Source of the DNA: Lobulomyces angularis
Taxonomy: Eukaryota > Chytridiomycota > Chytridiomycetes > Lobulomycetales > Lobulomycetaceae
DNA: 64,000 nucleotides
Assembly: GCA_027604685.1 (NCBI GenBank)
Contig: JADHYX010000024.1
Span: 41,047-105,046 of the forward strand
Reading direction: 5' to 3'
The translations under genes were made by a program, and so were the position numbers. Shown here one piece after another: positions 36,097-47,514 of this stretch (position 1 is the stretch's first letter; every line of letters begins with the position of its first letter). Under the pieces are notes generated by a model. The model saw nothing but the letters and a program-made list of their open reading frames with translations. It made no database searches and was not told where the DNA came from.

Positions 36097-38299
36097 TCAC
36101 TTTTAAAAAAATTTTTTTATATTAAAAAAAATTAAAAACAACGGTAACTTACTGTAAGTACATATTTTGGTCCGTCCCCACCCTCGGGAGTAGTCCAATT
36201 AATATTTTGGCTTGGGTCTTTAATATCACAAGTCTTACAATGAATACAATTCTGGGAATTAATTTGAAAACGTTTCTTTCCTGGATTTTCTTCATCATCT
36301 ACGTATTCATATACTCCCGCTAAGGTTAGTGTCATTGATTAAAAGATTATTTGTGAAATATAATAATCCAATTACCTGGGCAAAATTTCTGTTCCGGCCC
36401 ACCGAAAATTTCTAAATTACGTTCCAATTGTTCCTTGGGACCTCTTTGCAATTGTAAATGTACTGGCTGATTATCTCTATGGTTTGTGCCGGTTCTTGAA
36501 ACATTATCCAACAGTTCAAAACTAATAACGCCATCAGGTTTTGGATAATCTATGGGTTTATATTCTTTGGCTGGTCTTAACATTTCATGATCTGGTTTTG
36601 GATGCTGGAATGTCCAAGGCACTTTTCCTTTTAATAACAAAGTATCAATACCAGAATATATTAGTCCTCCAAATACACCTAATGCGCTGTGAAATGAAGG
36701 TCTTACGTTTCTGACTTCATTAAGTTCTTTCCAGACCCATGATTCTTTCAAATTATTTTGGTAGGATACCAAATCAATTGGTAAATTTGAAGTATCTTCT
36801 TTAGTTATTGCTTCAAATGCCGCTTCTGCAGCTAGCATGCCTAATTTTTCGTTTTTTTATTTTAATTGCAAAAGCTAATGTTATACATTACCACTTTTCA
36901 TAGCCGTATGAGTACCTTTGATTTTTGGGACATTCATAAATCCAGCAGAACATCCAATGAGTGCTCCACCAGGAAAATTCAATTTCGGCAAGCTTTGAAT
37001 ACCGCCTTCATTTAAAGCTCTTGCCCCATAAGAGATAATTTTACCACCTTCTAAATATTTTTTTATGAATGGATGATGCTTATATCTTTGAAATTCTCTA
37101 TATGGAGATAAATTGGGATTTTTATAATCTAATGCAACAACATATCCAATAGCACATAAGTTATCTTGCAAATGATACACTAAAAGAAAATTAATTATTT
37201 TTTTTAAAACTAAAATTATACTAAATGCTCCTCCGTAAGTTTGGTAATCCATTGGCCATCCTACAGAGTGTGATACTAGGCCTGGTTCATGTTTTGAAGG
37301 ATCTAGTTCCCAAACTTCTTTTAAACCGATACCATAAGTTTGAAATTTGCCTTCTTCTCTTAATTTAAATTTTTTTATAACTTGTTTTGACAAAGATCCA
37401 TGACAACCTTCAGCAAATAAACTATTTTTTTTACAAATATATTCATTAAAAAACCAAATAAAATTAAAATACGTGACTTTTGCATGAATTTCCATTCCTC
37501 TTTCAAAAGTGTCCATTGGGGCACCTGCTTTATTAATGCCAACATCATTGGTTGCAATTCCCTTAACAGATCCATCTTCATTATATAAAACTTCGCTTGC
37601 AGCATAGCCAGGATATATTTCTAAAAGAAATTGATTTACAATGTTTTAACTAAATTATTTAATAATACCTGCTCCAGCTTCTTCCGCCTGTTCACCCAAC
37701 CACCTGGTAAAATTATTCAGTGAAACAATAAAATTTCCCTTGTTTGACATTTGAGGGGGATGAGGTAAAGGTATGGCCCACTTCTTAGTAAAAAAATACA
37801 TTTTGTCTTTTAAGGCAGGTTGCAGTAAAGGAGCATTTTTATCTTTCCAATCTGGTATTAATTCATTTAAAGCTCTAGGTTCCAAAACAGCTCCAGATAA
37901 AATGTGAGCGCCTAGAAAAAGAAGAATAAAAAAGTAGATGCAGAAAGTTTATTAATTACCAATTTCACCACCTTTTTCCACAACTATAACCCTTAATTCC
38001 TGCTCATTTTCGGCAGCTAGTTGCAGAAAGCGAATTGCAGCACTTAAACCTGAAGGACCCCCACCTACAATGCAAACATCGGCTTCCTAGCAAGAGATAA
38101 ACATATTAATTAACATTTAAAAACATTTTACTTCGACGTGTCGGTCTTCTTTGAGTTTTTCTTGGACATCACGCAGATGGGAAAATTTTGAAAAGAGCCT
38201 AAGTTGCTCAAAGCGACAAATTACAGATTTTCGATAATTATAGTTACTTAAATTTAACTTTGTTCGTTTGGAAAAATTTAATAATGTATTTCGAAACAT
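36097..38299 (-). CDS. ETFDH: Mitochondrial ETF-ubiquinone oxidoreductase
   Basis: Nine exons (38132-38299, 37960-38086, 37669-37911, 37473-37620, 37222-37421, 36892-37179, 36376-36840, 36153-36319, stop at 36097-36099) give 602 residues. A basic, Ser-rich mitochondrial presequence precedes the FAD-binding motif [14 protein letters not shown]. Later landmarks are [75 protein letters not shown] and the 4Fe-4S ligands FCPAG plus [12 protein letters not shown]. The enzyme sits on the matrix face of the inner membrane and passes electrons from ETF (fatty acid and amino acid oxidation) to ubiquinone. The stop codon would be the whole coding part of the last exon; without that splice the protein gains five residues and stops at 36132. 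Confidence 0.95.
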
Positions 38300-41644: not shown

Positions 41645-44600
41645 TTAGCAGACAGTTCTTTCCTCTGGAGCGAATACAAAATAAAATGCCTAATAATATA
41701 AAGGAAAAAAGGGTAAAAAATAAATAAATTTATAAATAAATACATGAACAATAGGTAATGCCCTTAATCTACCTCCATTTCTTTCATTTTTAAATTCCAG
41801 GTCATTTTCCATTGATCTTAACTTTAATTCTTCGATATCAATTCTAACCTTTTCATAACCATCCGGAACTACAATTAATAGTTCCTTAAATTTAAAGCTT
41901 AAGGTTTTTCTTTGAATAATTTCTTTTAGGTCAAGTTTCAATGACATCAACTCCTTATAAATCAAAACAGACATAGGAAAAAATTTGAATTGTTTTTCCC
42001 CAATTTTTTTACTAAAGTTTTGTATATTTTCAATATCAATAATTGCTGCATTTTCCTCTTTTTCTATTTCCATTAAAAGTTCTTCATCTTCATATCCTCT
42101 AACGTCTTTAACTCCTACAATGAATCTATATTCTTCCAACTTTGCATTAAATCTTTCGTAGTTCTTCACATTATTCAAAAATTCTATAGCTTCATTTTTA
42201 ATAAAATTTTGGTAGTTTTTAATCCATGTTGTATTATTAAATATGGAAGTTGAAGCGAAATTTAAGTGCGGAATAAATTTTAAATGAACCTTCATTTGTT
42301 CATTAGAGTTGATTTTTTGCTTTTCATTCAAAATCTTTTGCAGAAATAATTTCTCCTGACCTAAATCCGTAAGAGTGTTATATGACAAACCCTATCCAAA
42401 AAATAAAATATTTTAAAATAAAATAGTTCATTTTGTTGAATTACCAAATCATTTAACATTTTTTCATTTTCTTTTGAACTTTCTATTCGACGAGCTTCCA
42501 AAGAATACTCACCTTAACGAAATATTTTAATATTGTTATGTTTTTTTATTGAATTTAAATTATACCATTGCGGACATGGATCACTTCCCCCAACTCTTCC
42601 CTTTCAGTGCACATTTCATCTGCTACAATGTATTTCATTAACTGTAATTCAAATTCTTTCAAATCTACTTGCTCCCAAATTTCGCCCTCACTTCCAAACC
42701 TTTCCAACTACAAAATTAAACAGATTTTTATAAAAAAATAAAATAAAATATTGTCATCGTAATACAATCCTAGCCATTGCCATTATAGGTAAGTCAGTTT
42801 TTGAAGAAAAATTCCAAACGGTGCCCATCCCACACGGTTCTTTTAATGGTTTTTTAGGCAAGATTCTGAGCTCCTTTTTTACAGGAATATCAATGGTTTT
42901 ATCACTCCTTGTCAAAATTTTCATGCAGTTTGCTTCTAAAACACTAGTTTCGTTTGGGCAGTGTATTTTTTTCTTAAAAACTACCAGAAATTCATGATGA
43001 AACATTAATATATCATATGTGGTAGAAAAATAGCTCCCCAGCCCTCCTGCAGCTGTGTGTCTCAATCTCTTTACTATAAATTCTTCAATCTCAAATCCCC
43101 TGCCCAAGTACTTTAAAATTGATTCAAAGCTAATAGCTTGATAAATTTTTTTTTTTCTATTATCTCCCATTCCAAAAAAGCATCTCCCGCCATCTTTCAA
43201 CAAACTTAAAATTTCCGAAAGAATTAAAAAAATTATTCAAAAAAATGATTTTGACTAAATATCAACACTTACCGATTGGATTCTTGTGCAACTGAATCAA
43301 TTTCGACTAAAAATTCTTCCATTTCGGATAGAAGAGATAAATCTCCAATAATACCTTCAGAATACTTGATACAATCTATTTTCATAAAATATTTTTTAAC
43401 TTGCAGATACTGAAAAATGTTGTTACCTTTGTATGGTGGGTGACTTAATATCAAATCGAAATTTTCATTACTAAAGACGTCACCCAATTCTTTTAGGTTT
43501 GTAGAATTTCCTAAAAACAAACTTGGAATATTGTGTTTTTTATCTAATGGTAACTTAAAATATAAATTTTTTTGAGCCAATTTCACTGCGCGCTATGTTA
43601 AAAAAAATATTTAAAAATTAGTAATGAACATTAAATTTAATTACAGGGTTAATGTCAACACCAACTGATCTTCTTTCTAAAATAAAACTTTCAATAATAT
43701 CAGTTCCTCTTCCCAAAAAGTTAGACAATATCAAGTCATTTTTTTTTGAATAACGAATTATCGCCCATCTCACCAAGTGGGGAAGCCATGTTCCTGAATA
43801 ATCCATGCTGGAATGATTAGCCCATTTCGTCGCTCTACCTTTCAAATCTGGAAAAAATGTCAATTTACATCAGAATTTTTAAACACAAACCAAAAAAAGA
43901 ACTATCGATAACACAGCTAAACAATTTATCATCATCAGGACCGTAGTCCTTTAACAACTGAGGAGCACTGTCGCCCAATTCTGCTGAAGTGTTCATCATC
44001 TTTCTAGTTAAGTAGCGAGTACCCAACTTAGACTCATCCTCATTTACAAATATATTACAGTTCGCTTTTTTATTACTCGAAATTAATGGGATTTCTGAGC
44101 AATCATAACACAATAACACCCCTTCAAATTTGTTCCATTTTATAGAAAAATCCGTATGACAGTACCAGCATTTATTTTTTCTCTGAAACTGATCTCGTTT
44201 TTCTTTTAGAAGTTTTAATATAGATGCAAGATTTTATATAAAAGATTAACCATAAATTTTAGACACTTCTAACAAAGTCTCGTTATCAATTTCGTTTTTT
44301 GCCTGAGTTCTTGCACTTATATCTTTATTAAGTCAGTTACTTTATGCTTGAAATTATTTATAATCAACCTGTCTCAATAAATGAATCCAACGAATGCGTG
44401 TGAGTGATCTCCGAATTCCTACCGAAACATTTATGGCAAAGATCATAAGTGGAATAGTAGGTTAACGAGCATGGCTGGCAGGTATACCAAGTACGCTCTT
44501 TATTCAACTCTTTTAAAAATCAAATAGTGAAACCATCCTGAATTAATGAAAAATTTTTACCAATTGAACATCCATCACAACTGAATTTGTCAATGTAATT

Positions 44601-47514
44601 CATATTTAACAAGGCCTACATTGTGACAATTAGATTAATGCTTTCTTTTCATATTAATTTACCTCATGTTCAGGGCACCAAAAAACCACACCGTTTTCCC
44701 AATGAGATAAAGGTTTTTTGGTACATTCTATGTGAAACGAGCGAAAACATGATTTGTCAAAACATCCTTTTTTTAACTATGTCAAGGAATAGAAAAATGC
44801 AGACTTACCTATTGAGGCTCCTCTGCCCTTGCAGTTAAAGCACTTAATTTTGCTAGCTCTTTTAACAGCTTCAAAAATATTGAACCACTCTATAAAAAAT
44901 TTTGTAAAATTGGTAACAAATTTTTCTTAAAAAAATACCATTAAGATGATCAAAATATACAACCTCAGGAGAGTATTTTGCGCAATAGATGTGAACCCAA
45001 ACTAACTTTGTAATTTCGTCAATATCATTATATTCACTCTTTATAACTAGGGGAAATTTAAAAAATTGTGAAAAGCTAGTGGAATCGGTATTGCAGAATC
45101 CACAAATTTTTTCATATTGAAGTGATTTTTTAAAACTTCCAATATTAAAAAATGCAAATTTGGTTAAATTTTCAGTATCGTTTTCATTAAAATGTAAAAA
45201 AAAGTTGTCTTTAACAAACTTTAATTCTATTTCTTTGGAGGTTACCGAATCTCTGATCTTTTTATTAAAAACTCTCCTCATTGAAAAGCTGGTTTTTGGA
45301 TGCTTATGGTATTTGTAATTAGTTTGAAAACAGTTTACACATAGGTAGTATGAACAATAAAAACAATTGTAAGTATATTTCTTAATTTGGCTTTTGCAGT
45401 CATTGCAGAAATATTTTTTCGTGTCTGTGTCGTCTTCTGAATATACTTCTTCAACTTCCTCCGAATCTCTTTTTGTTTTAATTCTTTTTTTTATTAATTT
45501 TTTTTCTAGTTCATAATTTTCGTTGTTTAAAATGTTTTCATTTTTTTCGTTAAATTTAAATCTGATGCTATTCATTCCTAAAAAAAAAAAGGTAAAAAAA
45601 AAGGATAAGTATTCTAAAAATTCTTACCAATCCATTCGTCAAACTTTATATCCCATCCAAGATAATGAACCTTAACTTCAGAGCATTTTGCTTCGATAAC
45701 AACTGCAGGGTAGTATGTTTTGGAAGCCCACAAAACTTCAACTACATTTCCAACCTCTAATAATTGCTTTAAATTATTTATCGACCTAGTATCATTTAGA
45801 GTGATGGAATAAAAAAGAAATAAAATTACATTTCTCTGTTAAACTCTTGTCTATTTCGTTTCCTCGTAGAAGATAGAAAGTTTTTATAGAATAAATCAGC
45901 AAGCGCTAATACAAGTTATTCTTCAAATTCAATACTGTAATTTACCATTTTCTTTTTCACTTAAGCCAGAACCTTCTTTTCTTAACTTCTGTGTTGAATT
46001 TTTTTTTTCTGGAATATTCATGGTTGCAGTATCAATTTTAGGAAGGTTAACAAATTTAAGTCTGCTACTATTAATCCCTATAATAAGCATTTTAAAAAAT
46101 AGCCATATTTATCGTGTCACCTAGCCATTCGTCGTATTTTCTACCCCAATCAGGATAATGAATCTTAATGGCCATCGACTTAATTTCCACAATTTCTGCA
46201 ACATAGTATTCCTTTGACGCCCATAGTACCTGAACTAAAGAACCAATCTGAAGAAATTGCTGTAGTTCTCTATAAGATCTGAAGTTGTCTAGTTAGCAAA
46301 AAGCAGAAAGCATAAGTAGAATACTGTGTAATTGCATTGTTTTGAGGTTTCCATCTTGTAGAAGACAATAAATCTGTTTCGCAGTTAATTTTGGCTACAT
46401 TCACTAAATAATTAATGTATATGTTAAGAAGAAAAAAGCTCAATAATACACTGCTCTCTGTTAGTATTAATTTGATCGGGATTCAGTTCAAGCAAATCCT
46501 TGTGTTTTCTGCGAGTACTTTTCACATCTATAACAGAACATACCCTTATTCGATCACTATTGACTCCTTAATTCCAAAAAATGACCATTAAAAAGTAGCG
46601 CCTAAAGCATACCTATCCATTCATCAAATTTTTCATTCCAACCACGGTAATGTACTTTAATGGAATTTACTTTAATTTTTATTATTTTTGCAGGATAAAA
46701 TTTAGAACAAGAAAAAACTTCAATTAACATTCCAATTTCGAAGTTAATTTTAGATTCTTCGGTAATTTGAATTTCATCATTAAGTTCTTCAACCTCAGTT
46801 TTTTCTTGCTCAGCATCTTTAAAAATATCAAAGCTCTTTAGTTCAACATTCACATTATTGTCTATTCTACTAACATTTAAAGGGCTTTTTAAAGCTCTAA
46901 GTCTATTACTGTTAATGCCTAATGTTTATAGTAGTTTGTGAGGAAGGATTTAAAAGGCATAAAATTACCTATCCATTCATCATAATTACTTTCCCATCCA
47001 TCGTAGTGAACTTTAACTAGCATATGCTTAACTTCAACGACAGTAGCAAGGTTGTATTCTTTTGAAGCCCACAAAACCTCAATAACTGCACCAACATGAA
47101 AAATGCATTTTAACTCCTTGAAGGTCCTAAAAACAATAACTGAAATTAAAAGTAACAATTAGTTTACATTTGGCAAGTTTTTAAAGTTGAAACAAGATTT
47201 CTGGTTGAGGAAGCCAGTTTTGCTTCTTTCAGAAGGGCAGAAGTAATCCAATTTAAATCTTTTTTTTGTTCACTTAACACAACCTTTGGAATATATTCAT
47301 CATTTTTTTTTCCCACAGTAATCGTTGAATATATTGATACACACTGCAAGCATAAGGTAACCACCGAAAACGGCCCGCGATTATCGCAGTTGTATGTTGG
47401 AGAACGGCAGTTGCAATTAAAAAAGTTTCGATTTTCAGATAATATAATATTTTCCAAATCTGGAGAAAAATCAGATCGTGGACTGTTAGTAACGGAGTCA
47501 AACGATCTACTCAT
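41645..47514 (-). CDS. Chromatin-reader/zinc-finger/DNA methyltransferase fusion
   Basis: Twenty-four exons, phase-consistent, 1579 residues: 47168-47514, 46969-47126, 46613-46918, 46450-46566, 46325-46403, 46121-46269, 45946-46077, 45830-45905, 45628-45785, 44939-45577, 44809-44889, 44663-44766, 44561-44615, 44369-44509, 44251-44322, 43891-44202, 43645-43847, 43427-43592, 43273-43375, 42766-43204, 42566-42707, 42445-42512, 41744-42391, 41645-41689. Order: four Tudor-knot-like domains (117-520); ZZ-like finger (CNDC, CFYC, CVNC, HxxxH); extended PHD (655-782: ICGFC, WVHIYCA, CFNC, GCFDKSC, FHIEC, CPEH); second ZZ-like finger; GATA-like CWYC/CYDC; then a methyltransferase with SAM motif SNFLGRGTDIIES, VGVDINP, catalytic SHPPYKDCIKYS, GDLSLLSEM, GMGDNR and FHHEFLVVF. 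This matches bacterial amino-MTases (HPPY, ...GDxR...). The tail (GVKDVR, LPIVHAFYFVF) looks like a second, degenerate copy. Product base (6mA or 4mC) unknown. Confidence 0.88.
45577..47126 (-). repeat. Four tandem Tudor-knot/chromobarrel-like domains
   Basis: Four copies of one module lie in the N-terminal third of the methyltransferase gene, at about 46905-47126, 46550-46770, 46065-46269 and 45560-45785. Each has VGxxIEVLWASKxYYxAxVVExK, then KVHYxGWxxKYDEWIG, an intron splitting the final Gly codon, then INSxRL. The intron after DEWI is at the same position and phase in all four, and upstream linkers share an LSSTRxxx segment, so duplication was at DNA level with introns. The KVHYxGW...DEW core is typical of MYST/MSL3 chromobarrels and PHF20-type Tudor domains, which read methylated histone tails or bind RNA. 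Confidence 0.88.

Follow-up and report, generated by a model that had tools for sequence, protein, structure and literature searches.

The window analyzed here is a stretch of 64,000 nucleotides from the chytrid Lobulomyces angularis (GenBank assembly GCA_027604685.1, contig JADHYX010000024.1, positions 41,047 to 105,046 of the forward strand), the genome of which comprises 20.76 Mb in 533 contigs. Its minus strand carries a gene, with the start codon ATG at 47514 and the stop codon at 41645 (positions are those of the window), in which a series of chromatin-reader domains precedes an amino-methyltransferase (MTase) domain of bacterial type. Strand and ends match those given in a preliminary description of the gene that was made from the sequence alone. 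The gene model rests on computation and on comparison with the deposited protein P0013 (HK099_007310, 1137 residues) of Clydaea vesicula (Chytridiomycota, Lobulomycetales): a splice-aware dynamic program was used, its output was corrected by eye at two introns, and the result was checked against P0013. The final model has 24 exons, as had been claimed, and 1582 residues instead of the 1579 reported; all 23 introns are of the GT-AG type and measure 40-68 nt. Over the region searched, P0013 shares 94% identity with the window protein, from which it differs in a few residues. It begins after the third of the N-terminal repeats, and pieces of the PHD finger and of the segment preceding the MTase are absent, so that the database entry understates the architecture. 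As its UniRef name is DNA methylase N-4/N-6 domain protein, the MTase part has already been annotated automatically. A search of the L. angularis genome with the sequence of the MTase domain returned this locus only; the PF01555 profile gave no match in that genome, probably because exons were scored singly.

The encoded protein consists of four MBT/Tudor-knot repeats, a ZZ finger, an extended PHD finger, a second ZZ finger, a GATA-like finger, the amino-MTase domain with its HPPY motif, and a C-terminal domain (Table 1). A Pfam scan, for which a sequence still containing one 17-residue in-frame intron was used, gave matches exceeding the curated cut-offs for MBT (E = 2.1e-22, four stretches), Tudor-knot (1e-14, four stretches), ZZ (2e-5, two stretches), zf-HC5HC2H, which is the extended PHD finger (6.1e-10), and N6_N4_Mtase (PF01555; 8.7e-10). 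The score of the latter, 39.4 bits against a cut-off of 26.7, places the domain in this family. The order of domains in the preliminary description, from the four Tudor-knot-like repeats to the MTase, is confirmed; its GATA-like finger was recognized by eye only, with no Pfam GATA match in the window protein, and its account did not include the C-terminal domain. Among solved sequences, repeat 4 weakly resembles L3MBTL3, Eaf3, PHF20 and At1g02740 (E ~0.001-0.005), and the extended PHD finger is nearest to Nto1, BRPF1 (Peregrin), PHF7 and PHF6, followed by Jade (E 1e-7 to 2e-3). MBT, Tudor-knot, ZZ and extended PHD domains are readers of histone tails or of methyl-lysine, and those of the window protein are predicted to bind histones. 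Domains of the methyl-lysine-reader type and an MTase thus occur in one polypeptide, the combination expected of a histone-reader-fused DNA MTase.

Table 1 Features of the fusion gene (positions in the window; residues of the 1582-residue model)
Feature	Residues	Position	Strand	Basis
Whole gene		41645..47514	-	Splice-aware model; 3' end and intron 43426-43376 agree with P0013
Exons 1-8 (high-low)		47514-47168, 47126-46969, 46918-46613, 46566-46450, 46403-46325, 46278-46121, 46077-45946, 45905-45830	-
Exons 9-16 (high-low)		45785-45628, 45577-44939, 44889-44809, 44766-44663, 44615-44561, 44509-44369, 44322-44251, 44202-43891	-
Exons 17-24 (high-low)		43847-43645, 43592-43427, 43375-43273, 43204-42766, 42707-42566, 42512-42445, 42391-41744, 41689-41645	-
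N-terminal Cys-rich stretch	34-58	47341..47415	-	By eye
MBT/Tudor-knot-like repeat 1	125-176	46896..47101	-	Pfam MBT/Tudor-knot
MBT/Tudor-knot-like repeat 2	228-278	46544..46742	-	Pfam
MBT/Tudor-knot-like repeat 3	344-396	46055..46256	-	Pfam
MBT/Tudor-knot-like repeat 4	466-518	45555..45763	-	Pfam
ZZ finger 1	566-604	45297..45413	-	Pfam ZZ
Extended PHD finger	667-785	44663..45110	-	Pfam zf-HC5HC2H
ZZ-like finger 2	796-845	44385..44585	-	Two Pfam ZZ stretches; placed by eye
GATA-like Cys4 finger	886-909	44099..44170	-	By eye only
Catalytic amino-methyltransferase domain	979-1215	42967..43891	-	Pfam, profile comparison, tree, structure model
Motif I, ILSNFLGRGTD	1018-1028	43699..43731	-
Motif IV, LSHPPY	1095-1100	43431..43448	-
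51-nt in-frame intron directly after HPPYK		43376..43426	-	Model; its translation is not in P0013
GMGDNR block	1147-1152	43156..43173	-
C-terminal domain (probable degenerate second MTase copy)	1263-1574	41672..42825	-	Profile comparison

The fusion is real and conserved. A homologue search restricted to the MTase region of whole proteins yielded 45 long proteins, P0013 included, of which 42 carry organism names, all of early-diverging fungi: Glomeromycotina, Mortierella, Mucorales, Endogone, Coemansia, Mycoemilia, Syncephalis, Piptocephalis and chytrids with Hyaloraphidium. In precomputed Pfam lists, the only source for the reader-domain counts, an extended PHD finger is present in 44/45 proteins, MBT in 32/45 and PF01555 in 38/45; PHD and PF01555 occur together in 37/45, in agreement with the claim of one fused gene. 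Coordinates inspected in five homologues place the PHD finger before the MTase in all five and MBT before PHD in four, the remaining protein (P0053) having no MBT match. Since the same domains recur in homologues of many other fungi, the fusion is not due to chance. The architecture, of which the preliminary description knew no precedent, is thus not peculiar to this genome but is shared by an early-fungal family. No Dikarya name was found among the homologues; the protein searches need shared words of five residues, which leaves absence from Dikarya or other eukaryotes unproven.

Within the MTase domain, the motifs follow the order motif I, HPPY, G.GDNR, so that the arrangement originally read from the letters, with the S-adenosylmethionine (SAM)-binding motif I before HPPY and a GDxR block after it, holds in the spliced model. 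HPPY is kept in 57/57 proteins of the first two homologue searches. Among the long fungal proteins, the window model included, HPPY is present in 46/46, motif I in 44/46 and GDNR in 42/46; the two proteins in which motif I was missed (P0039 and P0042) may have gaps in their gene models. Where the bacterial relatives have D-x-F in motif I, the fungal proteins have S-N-F (S-T-F in P0051). The permuted order of the beta class, with motif IV before motif I as in N4CMT, DpnA and MboIIA, is not that of the window domain, and its matches to chains of permuted MTases fall in the C-terminal part of those chains. Neither PF05063 (MT-A70) nor PF02384 (MetB) nor a THUMP family, expected of a Trm11/Trm14 enzyme, was among the 10 Pfam matches of the window protein up to E 1. 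With HPPY instead of DPPW, the enzyme is not of the MT-A70 type, as had been stated before. The suggested structure prediction was performed on P0013 using AlphaFold2 with an alignment of 40 rows: at a mean pLDDT of 70, the SAM-MTase fold of the catalytic domain was modelled with confidence and the C-terminus was largely folded.

The bacterial relatives of the domain suggest the kind of source from which it came. A search with a short query into the origin of METHYLTRANSFERASE returned 12 proteins, including stand-alone relatives of about 240 residues (P0007, P0009 and P0011). In representative prokaryote genomes 510 stretches encode relatives, the best 80 of which are mostly labelled Clostridia; protein searches and genome scan thus bear out that the bacterial enzymes are small and stand-alone. 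Of these 80 loci, 27 were examined, hand-picked among those with about 6 kb upstream. A same-strand D12/Dam-type MTase gene is located upstream in 27/27 (as a fragment in L051), and a gene for a DpnII-type nuclease is present on the same strand in 24/27, the exceptions being L013, L051 and L074. For both kinds of gene, one representative was assigned by profile (MethyltransfD12, E = 8.7e-57; TIGR00571 dam, 2.3e-80; DpnII, 1e-106). In a wider sample, taken from one bacterial phylum, 41/398 genomes contained a match with an E-value no higher than 1e-25. Of 38 loci from this sample, 29 encode proteins with at least 48% identity to P0009, and a DpnII match was present in the examined flanks of 24 of these 29, or of 20/25 when L095-L098, which re-sample genomes of the first set, are left out. 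In Fusobacterium vincentii, genes for Dam, DpnII, an Mrr-type nuclease and the HPPY protein lie in a row. DpnII-type systems methylate adenine at GATC (PMC12542736; here and below, statements on papers cited by PMC number refer to the parts of them that were available). In the pneumococcal DpnII system, which has the methylases DpnM and DpnA, the second one, DpnA, acts on single-stranded DNA (PMC3573125). The HPPY enzyme may replace DpnA in the operons described here, and the HPPY family is most simply read as a DNA-modification family. Among the best 120 of 7998 matches, there are bacterial relatives, P0164 (see below) not being one of them, that are named DNA methyltransferase by their sources.

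Other gene neighborhoods were also seen. A distant HPPY family (HPPYWDII; L128, L129 and L130) directly adjoins a D12-class adenine MTase, with no DpnII in the flank, and is possibly another two-methylase system. In L126, the HPPY MTase gene adjoins that of a second PF01555 methylase (609-1355 and 1348-2262), which reads like DpnA; the short flank contains no match to DpnII. A gene for a caspase-domain protein (Peptidase_C14; L114:189-1151) adjoins an HPPY MTase gene, and an open reading frame (ORF) with the domains DUF6996-DUF6997-DUF7226, perhaps a different nuclease partner, lies beside another (L108:2334-3626), a similar ORF being present near the HPPY gene of L114, on the other strand (L114:2527-3708). 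No relative was matched in a phage collection, whereas 14 records of a plasmid collection were, one covering at least 80% of the query; a scan of viral contigs gave three relatives among 68 pattern matches, including L081 at 68% identity.

The phylogeny of the MTase domain against bacterial HPPY enzymes, proposed earlier as a check, was determined with 43 rows. All 17 fungal rows fall into one clade with a support of 100/99, for which one ancient capture followed by descent would be the simplest explanation. Within it, the chytrid rows and one unnamed row group together (94/84), and Mucorales, Glomeromycotina and Kickxellomycotina each form a group too; Zoopagomycota do not form one group, so that the fit to the species tree is partial. 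The fungal stem is long (1.57), the bacterial backbone is not resolved, and the program warned of long branches meeting (L100 and L101). When the 17 fungal rows were compared by BLAST with 26 bacterial sequences, the best match was always L112, L109, L111, L098 or L104, at 34-41% identity. The loci of all five contain a match to DpnII, which is weak for L104 and L109. Comparison of profiles with hhalign (P 1.8e-53) supports kinship with the HPPY MTases of DpnII-type operons, and sequence and motifs agree with it. The fungal protein does not stand alone beside Dam and DpnII genes: it is encoded in the genome of a chytrid and is fused to readers.

The C-terminal 300 or so residues are probably a second, degenerate MTase copy. 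A profile of 31 of 41 fungal sequences, selected with a motif filter of which one of the matched motifs is itself a part, was aligned with 26 bacterial HPPY sequences at a score of 54.3 (P 6e-7, probability 92%) in an hhalign run that also printed an alignment-merging error. The alignment is collinear over 96 columns, which begin after motif IV and extend to the end. As controls, the best of 100 column shuffles scored 22.0 and the reversed profile 17.6, and scores of 12-15 were obtained against Dam, DpnII and the PHD region. Without the filter, comparison with 11 bacterial sequences gave P 1.9e-5 and a probability of 78%, with one of 10 shuffles reaching P 0.021; the filtered profile gave P 8.5e-5 and a probability of 60% against 27 Clostridia-type sequences. 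Similarity to the fungal catalytic domain is weak (P 0.003 and 0.0025). At the position of HPPY, judged by eye, the second copy mostly has V-P-H-I-P, and V-P-P-L in Hyaloraphidium. A structure search with a separate, poor model of a 216-residue exon of this domain gave no match.

Genes of other potential writers were found in the same genome. The product of an MT-A70 gene (G000:C83:13758-14470; L084 and L085) matches PDB entry 7f4r, which we take to be Tetrahymena MTA1, with E 3e-56, as opposed to 3e-21 for METTL3. With such an AMT1-like gene present, canonical N6-methyladenine (6mA) at ApT is to be expected, and the fusion enzyme would come in addition to that writer. Another two exon matches to MT-A70 (C286 and C23) and exon matches to PF00145 (C106) were observed. 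A weak PF02384 match was rejected, as it was read as a HemK-like ORF with NPPY. In the window itself, an ordinary neighbor of the fusion gene is a fragment of an ETF-ubiquinone oxidoreductase gene at 36884-37645 on the minus strand (Pfam ETFQO_UQ-bd).

With moderate confidence, the gene is considered to encode a conserved early-fungal histone-read, DNA-write enzyme built around a captured MTase of the DpnII-operon type that most likely acts on adenine N6. An early fungus would have captured a bacterial DNA amino-MTase such as occurs in restriction operons of the DpnII (GATC) type. The captured MTase was probably duplicated in tandem, after which the second copy would have decayed into a pseudo-enzyme, which may pair with the first copy as METTL14 and MTA9 do with their active partners. 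Fused behind MBT/Tudor-knot, ZZ and extended PHD readers, the MTase would be brought to chromatin by docking of these readers on histone tails, with the zinc fingers and the pseudo-domain helping to hold the DNA; the active domain would bind SAM and methylate an amino group in the HPPY pocket, most likely adenine N6. Membership of PF01555 and kinship with the HPPY enzymes of DpnII-type operons are well supported, and the analysis establishes the gene model, which domains occur and in what order, the retention of HPPY, the SAM-MTase fold, the operon setting of the bacterial relatives and the single fungal clade. We infer activity, the DNA substrate, the adenine base, guidance by histones, duplication in tandem and the part played by the second copy. 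A more specific scenario is put forward tentatively: a histone-mark-guided adenine MTase with a fused pseudo-MTase, taken from a DpnII-type operon near the base of the fungi, may have persisted in chytrids, Zoopagomycota and Mucoromycota and disappeared from Dikarya, and may set methylation, de novo or at sites other than ApT, for which AMT1 and MetB offer no explanation.

Several observations weigh against the proposal of a histone-guided adenine MTase. The loci sampled for operon context are those of relatives close to P0009, and distant HPPY proteins (L128-L132 and L100-L103) have no DpnII within the examined flanks. The relative P0164 is named a TRM11-family protein by its source. In motif I, fungi have Ser-Asn where bacteria have Asp-Pro, Asp-Gln or Asp-Leu. 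As the genome contains an AMT1-like gene, 6mA needs no second writer. The best structural matches are Trm11 (Z 20.0, root-mean-square deviation 2.5, 171 residues aligned), TrmN and Trm14, and in a PDB sequence search the Trm11-type entry 5e71 (E = 5.8e-6) is nearly level with the putative modification methylase 2zie (3.3e-6). Trm11, TrmN and Trm14 are amino-MTases of RNA, making N2-methylguanosine in tRNA, and have the same motif order as the window domain; structure aligners that follow chain order penalize permuted DNA MTases. With a profile of three bacterial relatives, 2zie (5.5e-14), MboIIA and DpnA rank above Trm11. The modelled fold does not by itself discriminate DNA from RNA as the substrate; DNA is favored by the location of the bacterial relatives in restriction operons.

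That the enzyme is active and produces N4-methylcytosine (4mC), following the same histone-guided logic as bdelloid N4CMT, is rather unlikely. The name of PF01555 covers 6mA as well as 4mC enzymes, and the PDB search with the window domain lists N4-cytosine MTases next after 2zie and 5e71, enzymes of this kind being matched in the search with the bacterial profile as well. The HPPY motif is typical of neither 6mA nor 4mC enzymes, which counts against cytosine as the target. N4CMT does provide a precedent for a reader fusion (PMC8885841), yet the bacterial relatives belong to DpnII-type systems, which modify adenine at GATC (PMC12542736, PMC3573125), and from this operon context the base and substrate of the window enzyme would be adenine in DNA. 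An MTase of Trm11/HemK-like order that acts on RNA or protein, brought by its readers to transcribed chromatin and, for example, to nascent RNA, is likewise improbable: to the Trm11-type matches and the name of P0164 can be added weak profile matches to PrmC/HemK and TIGR01177, but the bacterial relatives lie in restriction operons and others of them are named DNA methyltransferase, the Pfam scan found no THUMP, and the motif is HPPY instead of D/NPPY. It is doubtful, too, that the protein is a conserved but catalytically dead pseudo-enzyme serving as a SAM sensor, a methyl-DNA reader or a scaffold; the change of the motif I Asp to Ser in the fungal proteins in which motif I was found and the degenerate look of the C-terminal copy would fit this, whereas the retention of HPPY, the motif I loop and GDNR (46, 44 and 42 of 46 proteins) across several fungal phyla argues against it. 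A gene-model artefact, in which annotation joined separate reader and MTase genes, is very improbable, as deposited proteins from many other fungi likewise combine readers with the MTase and the gaps within the window model, computational as it is, are only 40-68 nt.

The gene bears on the question of how methylation is placed at chosen nucleosomes in early-diverging fungi. Of PMC12695648, PMC13297926, PMC11258239, PMC8885841, PMC7862722, PMC8298701 and PMC10853773, those on fungal 6mA name MT-A70/MTA1c, and two of them also MetB, as the writers, and the available text describes no histone readers for the AMT1 complex or MetB. As the conserved gene carries readers and writer in cis, the question of placement becomes directly testable by gene deletion. 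If the proposal of a histone-guided adenine MTase is true, the enzyme would join bdelloid N4CMT and fungal MetB as an example of how a methylase of restriction type became a chromatin enzyme of eukaryotes, in this instance with a source of traceable kind, DpnII-type operons, and with a probable fused degenerate partner. The wide fungal distribution, the DpnII-operon context of the relatives and the probable second MTase copy are new with respect to the preliminary description. In the parts of the literature searched, the fusion is not described; the survey by Iyer, Zhang and Aravind (2016), the likeliest to mention it, was outside that scope. According to the available part of PMC8298701, Mondo et al. 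(2017) found that 44 Pfam domains differ between early-diverging fungi and Dikarya, and PF01555 may be among them.

Of the known systems, archaeal Trm11 and Trm14 and Thermus TrmN are THUMP-bearing tRNA enzymes with D/NPPY, and, unlike the HPPY family, they have no restriction context. AMT1/MTA1 of the MT-A70 family with MTA9 is a 6mA writer of early-diverging fungi in which an active and a degenerate MTase form a pair (PMC12695648, PMC13297926); it differs from the window enzyme in belonging to the DPPW family and in that the pair consists of two proteins. MetB of Mucorales is likewise a bacterial-type MTase of early-diverging fungi for which an ancient transfer has been inferred, but it is of the PF02384 family, which was not matched in the window protein, and no reader fusion is described for it in the text available (PMC11258239). 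Bdelloid N4CMT, with which a parallel had been drawn at the outset, is an amino-MTase of the bacterial PF01555 type that a eukaryote captured and that was joined to a reader of methyl-lysine, for which the term "histone-read-DNA-write" was used (PMC8885841). In this the parallel stands; in motif order it does not. N4CMT is of the permuted beta subtype with a single C-terminal chromodomain (PMC8885841), whereas the window protein has motif I before motif IV, N-terminal readers (four MBT/Tudor-knot repeats, two ZZ fingers and an extended PHD finger) and a probable degenerate second MTase. The HPPY MTases of DpnII-type operons (P0009, L109, L111 and L112) are 36-41% identical to the window domain and have the same motifs in the same order; they are stand-alone proteins of about 245 residues with D-x-F in motif I, whereas the fungal enzyme is fused to its readers and has SNF.
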